A stretch of 50,163 bases of DNA from a virus. The translations under genes and the position numbers were made by a program. This document shows positions 1,023 to 34,548 of this stretch, one piece after another. Position 1 is the first letter of the stretch. Every line of letters begins with the position of its first letter. Under the pieces are notes generated by a model that was not told the origin of the DNA, did not search any database, and was given only the letters and a program-made list of their open reading frames with translations. The stretch is from positions 1-50,163 of IMG/VR virus record IMGVR_UViG_3300009528_000007; one strand, given 5' to 3'.

Positions 1023-1049
1023 CCGCAGTATTGGTTAATATAACATTCC

Positions 1050-1301
1050 TTATGCAACACAATCAGCCCGCATATAAACTCCCTTAATTCTCACATAAGC
1101 AACACCAGGATTTAATAGGGCTACAGATAGTTCGCCGTCATTCCCCGTTTCTGCCCAGTACGTTTTTACTTCATACAAAGAAATATTCATTATCCTTGCT
1201 ACTTCTTTTTGACTTGTGGTAGCAATAATTGTCCTCAGTTGTTTTAAGCCACTTTCTAATCTGTAAAATTCATTACCACCATAAACTTTTAATTTTCTCA
1301 C
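1050..1301 (-). CDS. Small putative HTH protein (83 aa)
   Basis: GTG start at 1301 with AGGAGG a few bases upstream. The segment SQKEVARIMNISLYEVKTYW looks like a helix-turn-helix, followed by a basic/beta C-terminus. A DNA-binding role is inferred from that segment only. Its TAA stop lies inside a degenerate copy of the intergenic repeat (GTTGCATAAGGA), as also happens at 4097. Confidence 0.65.
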   Translation of the reverse strand: MRKLKVYGGNEFYRLESGLKQLRTIIATTSQKEVARIMNISLYEVKTYWAETGNDGELSVALLNPGVAYVRIKGVYMRADCVA

Positions 1302-1329
1302 CTTTACCTCCTAGCAGACATGATCTCCT

Positions 1330-1515
1330 CTATTTACCCCGATTTTTTTCTATGAGTTTATCAATCAAGTTCCTCGCTTCCCTGATAGATTCTAATTTTA
1401 TTGGTAGTCCACTATGGTTGTGAATCGGGTCTTTCATCCATTCAATAACATCCTGTTCTCTTTTTCCTAGACATAAGCTTGCCATCCTTAACTCATGTTG
1501 TGTATCTCTTTTCAT
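1330..1515 (-). CDS. Small hypothetical protein (61 aa)
   Basis: Starts MKRDTQHELRMAS; charged and predicted helical, with no recognised family. The stop TAG is followed by a degenerate repeat and AGGAGG for the next gene, the same cassette layout as at 4-5 kb. Confidence 0.6.
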   Translation of the reverse strand: MKRDTQHELRMASLCLGKREQDVIEWMKDPIHNHSGLPIKLESIREARNLIDKLIEKNRGK

Positions 1516-1542
1516 GTTAATACTCCCTAGTTAACATAATCT

Positions 1543-1935
1543 TCACTTCCTCCCCCTCATCCCCTCAAGCTCCGCAAGAAGTTCCTCAACTTCATCCTGC
1601 TCTGTCCTCGGCTCTTGGGGCTTCACTTCTTTAATCTCACCACCGTAGAGTGGCTCTCCGAAGATCTCCTTGTGTATCTCGCCTAATAATTCAGCGACAT
1701 TTTTGAGCATATCGGGCTCGAAGCTGATGAACCTATATGGTCTCTGTAGGGACATGGAGATGCCCTTATCTTTCCCCTTATGTTGAAATATTTGGGTGAG
1801 TCTCACTTTGTGGTATGGAATCTCAGTCTCGTCATCCTTCTTGAATACACCCTTTTTGTGTGTAATGAAGAGTCCCTGTTTTTTCTTGTTCACGAAACAA
1901 TAGCCTTCGGACTTATGTAATTTAATTTTATTCAT
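1543..1935 (-). CDS. Hypothetical early protein (130 aa)
   Basis: Lysine-rich N-terminal half (MNKIKLHKSEGYCF...), then an acidic helical tail rich in E, ending EELLAELEGMRGRK. The basic-body/acidic-tail pattern is seen in phage nucleic-acid-binding proteins, but I recognise no family. It sits in the leftward operon below Cys-rich genes. Confidence 0.65.
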   Translation of the reverse strand: MNKIKLHKSEGYCFVNKKKQGLFITHKKGVFKKDDETEIPYHKVRLTQIFQHKGKDKGISMSLQRPYRFISFEPDMLKNVAELLGEIHKEIFGEPLYGGEIKEVKPQEPRTEQDEVEELLAELEGMRGRK

Positions 1936-3608: not shown

Positions 3609-3867
3609 TTTTTTCATCCCTTATCTCCTCATTAAAGTTATCTTCTATGTACTTCTTGATATATCCTAACTCCTCCTCGGTTACGGTCTTGAAGTCCCAC
3701 TTCTCCCTAAGCTTCTCATACTCATCTACCCTGTCTGTGTGGAAATGTACTTCTTCTTTGTCGTAGGCATCTTTAGCTGGCTCGGGACTCACCTCCATGC
3801 GACACACGATCTTCACCTTTTGCTTCGGCCAGAATTCTTCCACAAAACTCAAAAAGTACTTATTCAT
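3601..3867 (-). CDS. Hypothetical acidic protein (88 aa)
   Basis: Start ATG 3867 lies in the end of the upstream gene (GGATGAATAA). Begins MNKYFLSFVEEFWPKQKVK; acidic C-terminus with YIKKYIEDNFNEE. Overlaps the start of the nuclease gene. No family recognised. Confidence 0.62.
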   Translation of the reverse strand: MNKYFLSFVEEFWPKQKVKIVCRMEVSPEPAKDAYDKEEVHFHTDRVDEYEKLREKWDFKTVTEEELGYIKKYIEDNFNEEIRDEKND

Positions 3868-4072
3868 CCACAATCTCCACGCCAAGCTCGGTAAGCATAT
3901 CCCTCATGGTGTCCTCTATGTAGCTTGCGTCTTGATTGTTATGAACCCTACTCCACGCCTCGTTAGCCCAGCCCTGAATGTCTCTCTTGGTTATCCTGAA
4001 CTTCTTGTACGCATCAGCCAAGCCCCTCTCATACTCCCTTACTTTTATTGCCAAGAGTTCACTCTTTCTCAC
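3860..4072 (-). CDS. Small hypothetical helical protein (70 aa)
   Basis: GTG start at 4072 preceded by AGGAGGG. Highly charged, predicted all-helical (MRKSELLAIKVREYERG...). The leader holds the first strong copy of the intergenic hairpin repeat (4085-4107). Confidence 0.62.
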   Translation of the reverse strand: MRKSELLAIKVREYERGLADAYKKFRITKRDIQGWANEAWSRVHNNQDASYIEDTMRDMLTELGVEIVDE

Positions 4073-4084
4073 TTAGCCCTCCTA

Positions 4085-4107
4085 GTTGACATAATCTTAT
4101 GCGACAC
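4085..4107 (-). repeat. Intergenic hairpin repeat, copy A
   Basis: On the gene-sense strand it reads GTGTCGCATAA..TTATGTCAAC just before AGGAGGG. The core CATAA..TTATG is palindromic with a 2-base loop. The stop codon of the upstream gene (GTCGCATAA) is inside the element. Confidence 0.7.
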
Positions 4108-4300
4108 GGCCTCCGAATAGGCGACAGTTATGAAATCCATATTTGTCAGTTCCTTTGAGGCGTTTTTTATGGGAAGTTCCTCTTATATCAAACCATGCAA
4201 GCCACCTGTGTTTTCCTTCTTGGTCTTTGCCAAGCCAAGGAATGATTAATTTCCCCCACGAAGATAAGGGGTCATGGATTTTGTCAAGTGGTCTATTCAT
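4097..4300 (-). CDS. Small hypothetical protein (67 aa)
   Basis: Starts MNRPLDKIHDPLSS at ATG 4300, overlapping the end of the upstream zinc-ribbon gene, with AGGAGG in that overlap. Trp/Gly-rich centre (WGKLIIPWLGK), basic end. The terminal GRVA residues are encoded by repeat sequence, so the gene may have been extended when the repeat arrived. Confidence 0.6.
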   Translation of the reverse strand: MNRPLDKIHDPLSSWGKLIIPWLGKDQEGKHRWLAWFDIRGTSHKKRLKGTDKYGFHNCRLFGGRVA

Positions 4301-4436
4301 TCACTCCTCCTAAGTAGGTTTCGTGACATTTTGGGCAGAAATATTCATCTTTGCTTAATTGAATAACTTTACCCAACTTGTGATATTCGATATTGTATTT
4401 TTTAATTAATTTCTCTCCACAATTTTTACATCTCAT
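4293..4436 (-). CDS. Small zinc-ribbon protein (47 aa)
   Basis: Starts MRCKNCGEKLIKK at ATG 4436 after AGGAGGTGAAA; second pair CPKC follows about 30 residues later (C-x2-C...C-x2-C). Likely a one-ribbon zinc protein of unknown target. Its leader carries repeat copy B. Confidence 0.72.
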   Translation of the reverse strand: MRCKNCGEKLIKKYNIEYHKLGKVIQLSKDEYFCPKCHETYLGGVNE

Positions 4437-4448
4437 TTTCACCTCCTA

Positions 4449-4475
4449 GTAGACATAATATCCCTTATCCGACAC
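4449..4475 (-). repeat. Intergenic hairpin repeat, copy B
   Basis: The sense strand reads GTGTCGGATAAGGG-ATATTATGTCTAC, then AGGAGG. It begins immediately after the TAG stop of the upstream gene. One arm is mutated (GGATAA instead of GCATAA). Confidence 0.6.
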
Positions 4476-4645
4476 TATTCCCTTTCAAGTTCCTCACTAC
4501 AAAATGGGCAATAAAATATTTGCATGTGTATTTCTTTTTTAATATCTGTCCTAAATCTACAAATGTAATAACTTTTGTTATACCAAGCAATAAAACCATT
4601 CTTTAAAGCTTTGTATCTCTTGTCACATTCGCAATATTTTCCCAT
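4475..4645 (-). CDS. Small Cys-rich protein (56 aa)
   Basis: Starts MGKYCECDKRYKALK at ATG 4645 after GGGAGGTAAGA. It has CEC near the start and FYCPFCSEE near the end, which would form a zinc ribbon. The stop TAG runs straight into repeat copy B. No function assigned. Confidence 0.68.
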   Translation of the reverse strand: MGKYCECDKRYKALKNGFIAWYNKSYYICRFRTDIKKEIHMQIFYCPFCSEELERE

Positions 4646-4659
4646 TCTTACCTCCCGAA

Positions 4660-4683
4660 GTTGACATAATCCTTATGCGACAC
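4660..4683 (-). repeat. Intergenic hairpin repeat, copy C
   Basis: The sense strand reads GTGTCGCATAAGGATTATGT, CAAC, then GGGAGG. CATAA-gga-TTATG is a perfect 5-bp stem. Read on the opposite strand, TTGACA-N17-TATAAA also resembles a sigma70 promoter. The other copies lack the -10, so I treat that as incidental. Confidence 0.7.
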
Positions 4684-4862
4684 TATAAACCCTTAAAATT
4701 AGTAAGGTTATAAAGGCTTTTTTCGTATGTTTCTCTAATCCTTCTTGTTTTCTCTAAATGCTCCTCAGATTTAAAATGTTCGATAGCTTCTAGGGATTTC
4801 GATGGGAAAGTTTTATTGCAAATCCCACATCGAATCATTCCTTTTGGTATTTTTTTCTTCAT
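4683..4862 (-). CDS. Small C2H2 zinc-finger protein (59 aa)
   Basis: Start ATG 4862 is chosen because AGGAGGTGAAG precedes it; an apparent upstream extension only translates the repeat. Begins MKKKIPKGMIRC; CGIC, then H and H after 13 and 5 residues (C-x2-C-x13-H-x5-H), resembling matrin/U1-type fingers, then a charged helix. Possible nucleic-acid-binding early protein. Confidence 0.7.
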   Translation of the reverse strand: MKKKIPKGMIRCGICNKTFPSKSLEAIEHFKSEEHLEKTRRIRETYEKSLYNLTNFKGL

Positions 4863-4875
4863 CTTCACCTCCTTA

Positions 4876-4902
4876 GTTGACATAATTACTATTATGCGAC
4901 AC
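4876..4902 (-). repeat. Intergenic hairpin repeat, copy D
   Basis: Sense strand GTGTCGCATAATAGTAATTA then TGTCAAC and AAGGAGG. The core CATAAT-agta-ATTATG is a perfect 6-bp stem with a 4-base loop, the longest stem of the family. Confidence 0.72.
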
Positions 4903-4906
4903 TGAT

Positions 4907-5107
4907 TTATGGTCGCCACAATTCTGTTTCGTCTTGAAAATGCGGATACTCTGCTTTTAGGTATATTTCATGTTTACACATATCGCACTTATGGAGAAAA
5001 CTCGTGTCTGCAACACTTTGCAACTGGTATAACATTTTTCCCTTCTCACATTTCGGACACACATAATCAATCCTAATTTTATATACTTTCCTCCTAATTA
5101 AACTCAT
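4907..5107 (-). CDS. Small zinc-ribbon protein (66 aa)
   Basis: Start ATG 5107 (MSLIRRKVYKIRI) five bases after AGGAGG; an upstream GTG is too close to the SD. CPKC and CDMC pairs about 25 residues apart form a zinc ribbon with beta-like sequence between. Unknown target. Confidence 0.72.
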   Translation of the reverse strand: MSLIRRKVYKIRIDYVCPKCEKGKMLYQLQSVADTSFLHKCDMCKHEIYLKAEYPHFQDETELWRP

Positions 5108-13374: not shown

Positions 13375-13692
13375 TTAATAAAATCTTGGTTTTGAATACT
13401 TAGAAAACCTTATCCAGTTACCATTCCTTAGCTCACTCTCAATGGGTGAATAAGGCTGTTGTTTTTTTAAGAAATGATATATATGATACAAGGACTTTTG
13501 GCTTATCCGCTCAGTCTTTTCATTGATAATTCGCCATAGAGTCATGGCAGATACCCCGATCATAAACTTAGCAAGTCTATGGAAAGAATAGGGATGGGTG
13601 GAGTGGTAGTTGCGGAGTGAATCTAGTAAGACTTCTTTGTGTTTACTATAATCTTGTGTCGCATAACGGTTATTATGTCTAGCATCATTCAT
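13375..13692 (-). CDS. Putative HTH DNA-binding regulator (105 aa)
   Basis: Start ATG 13692, overlapping the upstream gene. A Cro-like HTH reads SFHRLAKFMIGVSAMTLWRI, flanked by basic residues, with an aromatic basic C-terminus (RFSKYSKPRFY). Encoded directly after a second HTH gene, it may act with it to control early promoters. Confidence 0.62.
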   Translation of the reverse strand: MNDARHNNRYATQDYSKHKEVLLDSLRNYHSTHPYSFHRLAKFMIGVSAMTLWRIINEKTERISQKSLYHIYHFLKKQQPYSPIESELRNGNWIRFSKYSKPRFY

Positions 13693-17158: not shown

Positions 17159-17504
17159 ATCATATTCTCTACCCCTGATATTGTCTCTTGCTCTTCACAT
17201 CTCTTTCCCCCACATTTTACCGAATCCCCCAAAGCCTTGAATTCCCCCAGATAACTCCACTCCGACACAGCCAACAGGGGTGAGTTGGTTCGCATAACTA
17301 CTATTATGTCAACTAGAATCGCTGATAATGCACAAGTTACCCCTGATAATCCCCTCATACCCCGAGATCGCTTCAAGAGAGAGCCAAAACCCCCATTTTC
17401 GTTTATTATCATAGATTACCTGCCCTAGAGTATAGGCTACAAAACAAGCATATATAATATAAGGGGTATAATAAAGGGGTAAAGAGGAGTACTTCATAAA
17501 AGAC
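17159..17504. other. Gene-poor stretch with a repeat copy
   Basis: No convincing gene. A plus-strand reading around 17239-17297 ends in GCATAA but has no start. A minus 62-codon frame (17309-17497) has no SD. It holds a copy of the hairpin repeat (17290-17315). Perhaps decayed gene remnants. Confidence 0.4.
17290..17315 (+). repeat. Intergenic hairpin repeat, distant copy
   Basis: Sense (plus) strand TCGCATAACTACTATTATGT then CAACTA. Matches copies A-D at 4-5 kb but in the opposite genome orientation, that is, co-oriented with rightward genes. No AGGAGG follows. Confidence 0.6.
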
Positions 17505-34033: not shown

Positions 34034-34548
34034 TGGGAAAAAGCACAATTCGCCCTAAACCCCCATCCATGTCACCAGGGGAACACTCAAAGTGGAAGCC
34101 CTGTCGGCTGTGCGGCACAAGGTGGGTAACAGCAGAACTCAAGTTTGATAGTGGCTCAACGCTCCCAGTTGTGGGGGAAACTCTTGAGGGAGCTACTTCT
34201 GGAGATACAGGAGTGGTTACTGAGGTAGAGACTTTAATCTCTGGTGCGTGGGGTGATAGTGATGCGGCTGGATACTTACATGTGGACACGCTCTCGGGTG
34301 ATGATCCCGAGCAGTATTCAATCTTCACAGATGATGAACTCATTAATGGAAGCACAGCGGGCGATAGCTGTTTAACTGCGGATGGTCAAGGGAACATCAA
34401 AATATGGGCGATTTTGTGGCCAAAACGAATGCTCACTAAATTTCGGGGGTTTTGGTATTGTAATGAACACCTCGGGTGGAGGACACGACCCAAGCTAAGA
34501 GACGAGGATAAGCTTATTGTAACAGAAGAGGAGCGGGGCAAGGAATGA
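34033..34548 (+). CDS. Structural protein with zinc site and Ig-like insert (171 aa)
   Basis: CRLCGTRWVT near residue 25, then a Gly/Thr-rich beta insert (VGETLEGATSGDTGVVTEVE) common in phage virion proteins, then CNEHLGWRTRPK. The zinc site may hold the split fold. TAATG overlap with the previous gene. Confidence 0.62.
   Translation: MGKSTIRPKPPSMSPGEHSKWKPCRLCGTRWVTAELKFDSGSTLPVVGETLEGATSGDTGVVTEVETLISGAWGDSDAAGYLHVDTLSGDDPEQYSIFTDDELINGSTAGDSCLTADGQGNIKIWAILWPKRMLTKFRGFWYCNEHLGWRTRPKLRDEDKLIVTEEERGKE

Follow-up and report, generated by a model that had tools for sequence, protein, structure and literature searches.

The reading to which we give a probability of roughly 0.7 is that the repeats standing before small genes in this phage genome are dif-like sites of the recombinases XerC and XerD, that they form the borders of small gene cassettes in a tailed phage, and that the cassettes are probably moved by the XerCD enzymes of the host. 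As far as its sequence tells, the repeat is an element of DNA and not of RNA. The window, which here means the whole stretch of DNA analysed, is 50,163 nt long (positions 1 to 50,163 of the IMG/VR viral record IMGVR_UViG_3300009528_000007) and belongs to a tailed phage with an SU10-like portal.

A two-arm score identified seven sites in the window, compared with 0, 0, 0, 0 and 1 in five dinucleotide shuffles, and the four strong copies of the original prediction were recovered at the right coordinates (Table 1). All four lie on the minus strand in the form GTGTCGCATAA-N-TTATGTCAACT, with spacers of 2, 6, 3 and 6 in coordinate order, and a ribosome site (SD) and a small gene were observed downstream of each. 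The pairing of CATAA with TTATG, which had been described for every copy, does not exist in the copy at 4448, since GATAA takes the place of CATAA there. AGGAGG follows the copies at 4084, 4448 and 4875 as had been described, but at 4659 it is replaced by TTCGGGAGG. Three degenerate copies had also been proposed (1041, 1312 and 1530); the first is a site at 1033-1060 which is weak in both arms, while the other two have the second half only. The half site at 1306 resembles one copy in phage G005, with a gene end replacing the first arm. Two plus-strand copies, at 13656 and 17287, had been missed.

Table 1. Dif-like sites, partial copies and adjoining genes in the window
Feature	Position	Strand	Sequence or product	Remarks
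Gene before first strong site	4907..5107	-	zinc-ribbon-like	stop 5 bases ahead of site
Dif-like site	4875..4902	-	GTGTCGCATAA-TAGTAA-TTATGTCAACT, 6-bp spacer	SD AAGGAGG directly downstream; spacer also in G005 and G011
Cassette gene A	4683..4862	-	59 aa; zinc-finger-like	weak Pfam matches below cut-off; stop TAG
Dif-like site	4659..4683	-	GTGTCGCATAA-GGA-TTATGTCAACT, 3-bp spacer	then SD GGGAGG
Cassette gene B	4475..4645	-	56 aa; Cys-rich	stop TAG
Dif-like site	4448..4475	-	GTGTCGGATAA-GGGATA-TTATGTCTACT, 6-bp spacer	then SD AGGAGG; spacer also in G005 and G011
Cassette gene C	4293..4436	-	47 aa; zinc-ribbon-like	below cut-off
Cassette gene D	4097..4300	-	67 aa	stop TAA inside XerC arm of next site
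Dif-like site	4084..4107	-	GTGTCGCATAA-GA-TTATGTCAACT, 2-bp spacer	then SD AGGAGG
Gene after last strong site	3860..4072	-	70 aa	GTG start
Half site	1529..1551	-	second arm TTATGTTAACT	then AGGGAG
Half site	1306..1336	-	second arm TCATGTCTGCT	then AGGAGG; gene end GGGGTAAATAG in place of first arm
Weak copy	1033..1060	-	GTGTTGCATAA-GGAATG-TTATATTAACC	score 19.5; no SD directly downstream
Solitary dif-like site	13656..13683	+	6-bp spacer CGGTTA	antisense to gene overlapped
Solitary intergenic dif-like site	17287..17314	+	GGTTCGCATAA-CTACTA-TTATGTCAACT, 6-bp spacer	near minus-to-plus gene switch; conserved in G005

The dif site, target of XerC/XerD, is 28 bp long with an 11-6-11 layout (PMC6449649; PMC3025954), and a plasmid example (pdif) reads ATTTCGTATAA-CGTGTA-TTATGTTAATT (PMC13141974). 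The repeat is composed of an XerC arm (GTGTCGCATAA), a spacer and an XerD arm (TTATGTCAACT), giving two 11-bp arms with the inner palindrome ATAA/TTAT. The full 28-bp layout is present at 4448, 4875, 13656 and 17287, and the sites at 4084 and 4659 have spacers of 2 and 3 in place of 6. When 84,980 bacterial and archaeal genomes were scanned with the window arms (21 arm bases) and any spacer from 0 to 8, 18 stretches were found, mostly in Aminicenantes MAGs and usually one per genome, and the spacer was exactly 6 in 17 of them. In a 470-kb MAG contig the strongest GC-skew change within the 200 kb examined was at 119.0 kb (0 of 200 permutations) and the site is at 119,476, within 0.5 kb, as expected for a dif at the terminus; in two further MAG contigs no matching change was seen at the site. 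A phylum-wide scan detected the strict site in 6 of 149 genomes, so it does not serve as dif throughout the phylum.

On contigs C103 and C96 of the Aminicenantes MAG HyVt-373 (L076, L077, L078), at least 12 dif-like sites were observed. Nearly all of them have 6-bp spacers; they occur in either orientation at distances of up to kilobases, and several have common flanks (CGAGAAGACT before and CTCGAATCACTAATTATAAGTGATATATC after). This cluster is a putative chromosomal dif-module island outside Acinetobacter.

The solitary site at 13656 has a spacer identical to that of two MAG sites (L027 and L038), and its XerD arm is degenerate at the end. The same solitary CGGTTA site was found at 34525 in G010 (L084:4526-4553), beside a homologous small gene (34% identical) and antisense to the gene, so that two distant phages have this site in common. 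For the site at 17287, a solitary counterpart was found at L136:1692-1719, with a conserved 40-base upstream flank and a position at a change of gene orientation; the phage possibly uses such a site for attachment or for dimer resolution.

Two readings in which the repeat acts on expression had to be weighed. The original prediction favoured an RNA structure, namely an insulating or mRNA-processing element, and a hairpin that insulates, processes or regulates the translation of each small gene would fit the partly complementary arms and their sense orientation just ahead of the ribosome site. However, no compensatory change was present among 36 SD-linked phage sites, against 36 broken pair cells, in a set that includes G008 (probably a solitary site) and counts one species twice as G002 and G021. 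The covariation score of the 23 distinct arm pairs was 0.032 compared with 0.034 in shuffles, and the four strong copies folded no better than shuffles (z from -0.81 to +0.93), the best fold being a different structure in two of them. In addition, no Rfam family matched the repeat, and the identical sequence is present in bacterial and phage intergenic regions which have no SD at all, which leaves the hairpin highly improbable. A palindromic repeat in the early gene region might also consist of operators or promoters of an early-gene regulator, and this can practically be dismissed, with a distance between arms of anywhere from 0 to 7, which is atypical of an operator, and no excess of promoter-like matches. 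A promoter or terminator reading was likewise tried and rejected, as no excess was found.

The small genes are fitted closely to the sites. It had been stated that sites begin at the stop of the upstream gene, and this was borne out: the G of the TAG stop of genes A and B is the first base of the next site, and the TAA of gene D falls inside a site. Searches of the cassette genes against Pfam and PHROGs gave weak zinc-ribbon-like matches only, and an ATG within TTATGTCAAC is the likely start codon in some cassettes (MSTK...).

The site also stands before single small genes, in gene orientation and just ahead of the SD, in at least nine other uncultivated phages (G005, G006, G010, G011, G015, G018, G019, G020 and G021). 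The first eight carry arrays of two to six SD-linked sites and G021 has one; all array sites point the same way as the genes. An SU10-type portal is common to the window, G005 and G019. Tandem dif-like sites about 50 bases apart, the first with a degenerate XerC arm, were seen in G006 (L087:9038-9125), where cassettes lie downstream, and in G010 (L084:760-944), with no cassettes downstream. At L087:8595-8750 a truncated gene copy is followed by a long perfect inverted repeat, perhaps an assembly artefact.

A scan of viral contigs, not exhaustive, for other dif types followed by an SD returned for the most part dif sites standing alone, and no other array appeared among them; arrays thus seem to be bound to the dif type of the window. 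In the viral contigs L099, L107-L109, L121, L128, L130 and L132, other dif types were followed by AGGAGG without an array, and these are probably solitary dif or attachment sites. No relatives were found with single window proteins; a two-sequence profile search revealed two more, which had no array nearby. More distantly related phages that also encode the phosphoesterase show no array in the neighbourhood of that gene, so the arrays are not essential. The late genes of the window gave no blastn match among 50,697 deposited phages, and the site plus SD had no convincing match in the same phages (best E 8) or in plasmids (best E 2), several plasmid matches resembling partial dif-type sites.

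Mobile gene cassettes had been the last alternative of the original prediction, in which the dif mechanism had not been seen, and this alternative is favoured by the breakpoints at the sites. In comparisons of at least 55 bp, with short site-to-site BLAST matches left out as trivial, homology ended inside sites 16 times against 3.1 expected, a count that both sides of the same pairs enter, so about 10 events are independent; none of 2000 circular shifts reached 16. The same gene module was found in different contexts with the breakpoints in the sites, and replacement, gain and loss of genes could all be observed. G002 and G021 are the same phage from different samples, with blocks of 10.6, 3.9, 15.9, 4.1 and 6.8 kb (about 41 kb) matching at 99.95-100%. 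Their common part reads ...AGGCAGGAGTGC-GTGTCGCATAA and they diverge after the XerD arm; past the site, 302 bases of G002 have no match in G021, and the spacer at the junction is GAAGAT in G002 and GA in G021. In G010 a single gene, together with its XerD half, is found behind two different upstream sequences, and the identity stops inside the site; the G002 and G010 junctions lie no more than about 700 bases from contig ends, where assemblies are least sure.

Further cases were seen between different phages. G006 and G010 have a solitary site and about 57 bases upstream of it in common, with a cassette gene downstream in G006 only. G005 carries an array of about 1.5 kb between its helicase and phosphoesterase genes, and in the window the same two genes have an overlap of four bases. 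Genes that lack a site in one phage begin right after a site in another, with homology from the SD onward (among them L086:9073 and G005, and L080:12816 and window 11381). Exchange with bacteria is touched by gene D, which has a 67% identical partner on contig C103 of HyVt-373 (G022), also ending at a dif-like site, and in both the homology of the DNA ends with the final base of the site. This hints that the window phage may infect a host related to HyVt-373. Contig C103 also has a gene for a phage-type integrase as well as phage-like genes and is therefore probably a prophage in part.

The spacers gave a mixed picture. All 16 viral-contig sites with no SD behind them had a 6-bp spacer, compared with 15 of the 36 SD-linked viral sites (Fisher 3e-5); in the remaining 21 it was 0-5 or 7, mostly 2-4. 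Short-spacer sites equal the 6-bp sites in the quality of their arms, and short spacers recur in the same forms (GA, GGA and GTGA). For XerCD to recombine pdif sites, the 6-bp spacers must be identical or nearly so (PMC13141974), and with spacers of other lengths many of the SD-linked sites should be locked for XerCD. Short spacers with good arms are the main unexplained fact and are odd for dead remnants; they may point to selection for locking, to deletion at the palindrome or to an involvement of homologous recombination. Among the 17 array sites with 6 bp, six identical spacer pairs were found between phages (0.25 expected; 0 of 20,000 column shuffles), and both TAGTAA and GGGATA are present in the window, G005 and G011 ahead of different genes. 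Such identity would fit exchange by XerCD, though part of it may come from common descent of the arrays in the window and G005.

A cassette would begin with an XerD half-site, go on with a ribosome site and a small gene (sometimes two), and end in an XerC half-site overlapping the stop codon. All cassettes point in one direction, so recombination between two direct sites would release a cassette as an excised circle, and the reverse reaction would insert it. The enzyme would be the XerC/XerD of the host. No Phage_integrase or tyrosine recombinase domain was found in the window, a record which may be incomplete; the Phage_integrase domain was found in one of 21 phage records and not in the other 20. 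XerD-like recombinases were identified in all nine site-bearing bacterial genomes tested. A phage might exchange cassettes with another that infects the same cell, or with prophages and dif modules in chromosomes; short-spacer sites would be inactivated (locked) remnants which hold a cassette in place, and the system may be active at present. The odds are somewhat better than even for the wider picture, in which uncultivated tailed phages carry integron-like single-gene arrays that host XerC/XerD insert, excise and exchange among phages, prophages and chromosomes, with short-spacer sites as locks.

The same breakpoints would arise by homologous recombination anchored on a conserved site, and it is possible, though rather unlikely, that the dif-derived sites are now only short shared linkers with which phage homologous recombination swaps small genes with no part for XerCD. 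More than half of the array sites are short-spaced with intact arms, the same leader of site plus SD stands ahead of unrelated genes in different phages, and gene homology often begins just past the XerD arm and not in the spacer, all of which would suit linkers. A pure linker, however, does not need to keep both bacterial dif arms, and it accounts neither for solitary phage sites which are all 6 bp nor for identity of 6-bp spacers between phages far above chance, as fits strand exchange by XerCD. The solitary 6-bp sites at 13656 and 17287, the first with a spacer known from two MAG sites, and the lack of an integrase found in the window could instead indicate attachment sites for IMEX-like integration at the host dif with XerCD, the array copies being by-products of repeated integrations. 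This is very unlikely, since it leaves one site per small gene in a single orientation unexplained, the end of the XerD arm at 13656 is degenerate, and the window phage was not seen in integrated form.

If cassettes are indeed moved by host XerCD, the rapid turnover of small early phage genes, which has long lacked an explanation, would have a concrete mechanism, namely a cassette system without any phage enzyme which borrows the chromosome-dimer resolvase of the host. New small genes would be predicted between dif-like sites, phage, prophage and bacterial dif modules would form one pool, and dif-like sites could be used as bait for accessory phage genes. A literature search that covered neither subscription journals nor preprints turned up no description of cassettes between dif sites in tailed phages.

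In mosaic lambdoid phages, short conserved linker or boundary sequences are located at gene borders where homology breaks. The position at gene borders and the breaks in homology are alike here, but the sequence is that of a bacterial dif site. Integron cassette arrays are head-to-tail series of promoterless single genes in one orientation, with a recombination site (attC, used by IntI) at the gene end. The phage arrays have in common with them the head-to-tail single genes, the one orientation and the site at the gene end; they differ in that the site is dif-like and not attC, no integron integrase was found, and the half-site before the gene adjoins the ribosome site.

IMEX phages integrate at dif via the XerCD of the host, for example CTX phage (PMC3025954, PMC3089051). 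Like them, the window has no integrase that could be found and carries dif-like sites, those at 13656 and 17287 being candidates for attP, given a record that may be incomplete. The IMEX cases found are filamentous or tailless and use an attP for integration of the whole genome, whereas here many sites bound cassettes, the phage is tailed and integration was not seen.

The plasmid dif (pdif) modules of Acinetobacter come closest among the known systems. They are similar in that genes are bounded by 11-6-11 XerC/XerD sites whose 6-bp spacer varies, one gene can stand in different contexts, and extra copies exist in chromosomes (PMC13141974, PMC6449649). Their flanking sites are inversely oriented, with C and D modules alternating, but all array sites here are direct, so the phage arrays are not classed as Acinetobacter-type dif modules. 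In addition, the arrays described here belong to tailed phages with another arm sequence and another host group, the modules are about 200 bp long with one small gene, many spacers are short, the SD comes directly after the XerD arm and the stop codon lies in the XerC arm.
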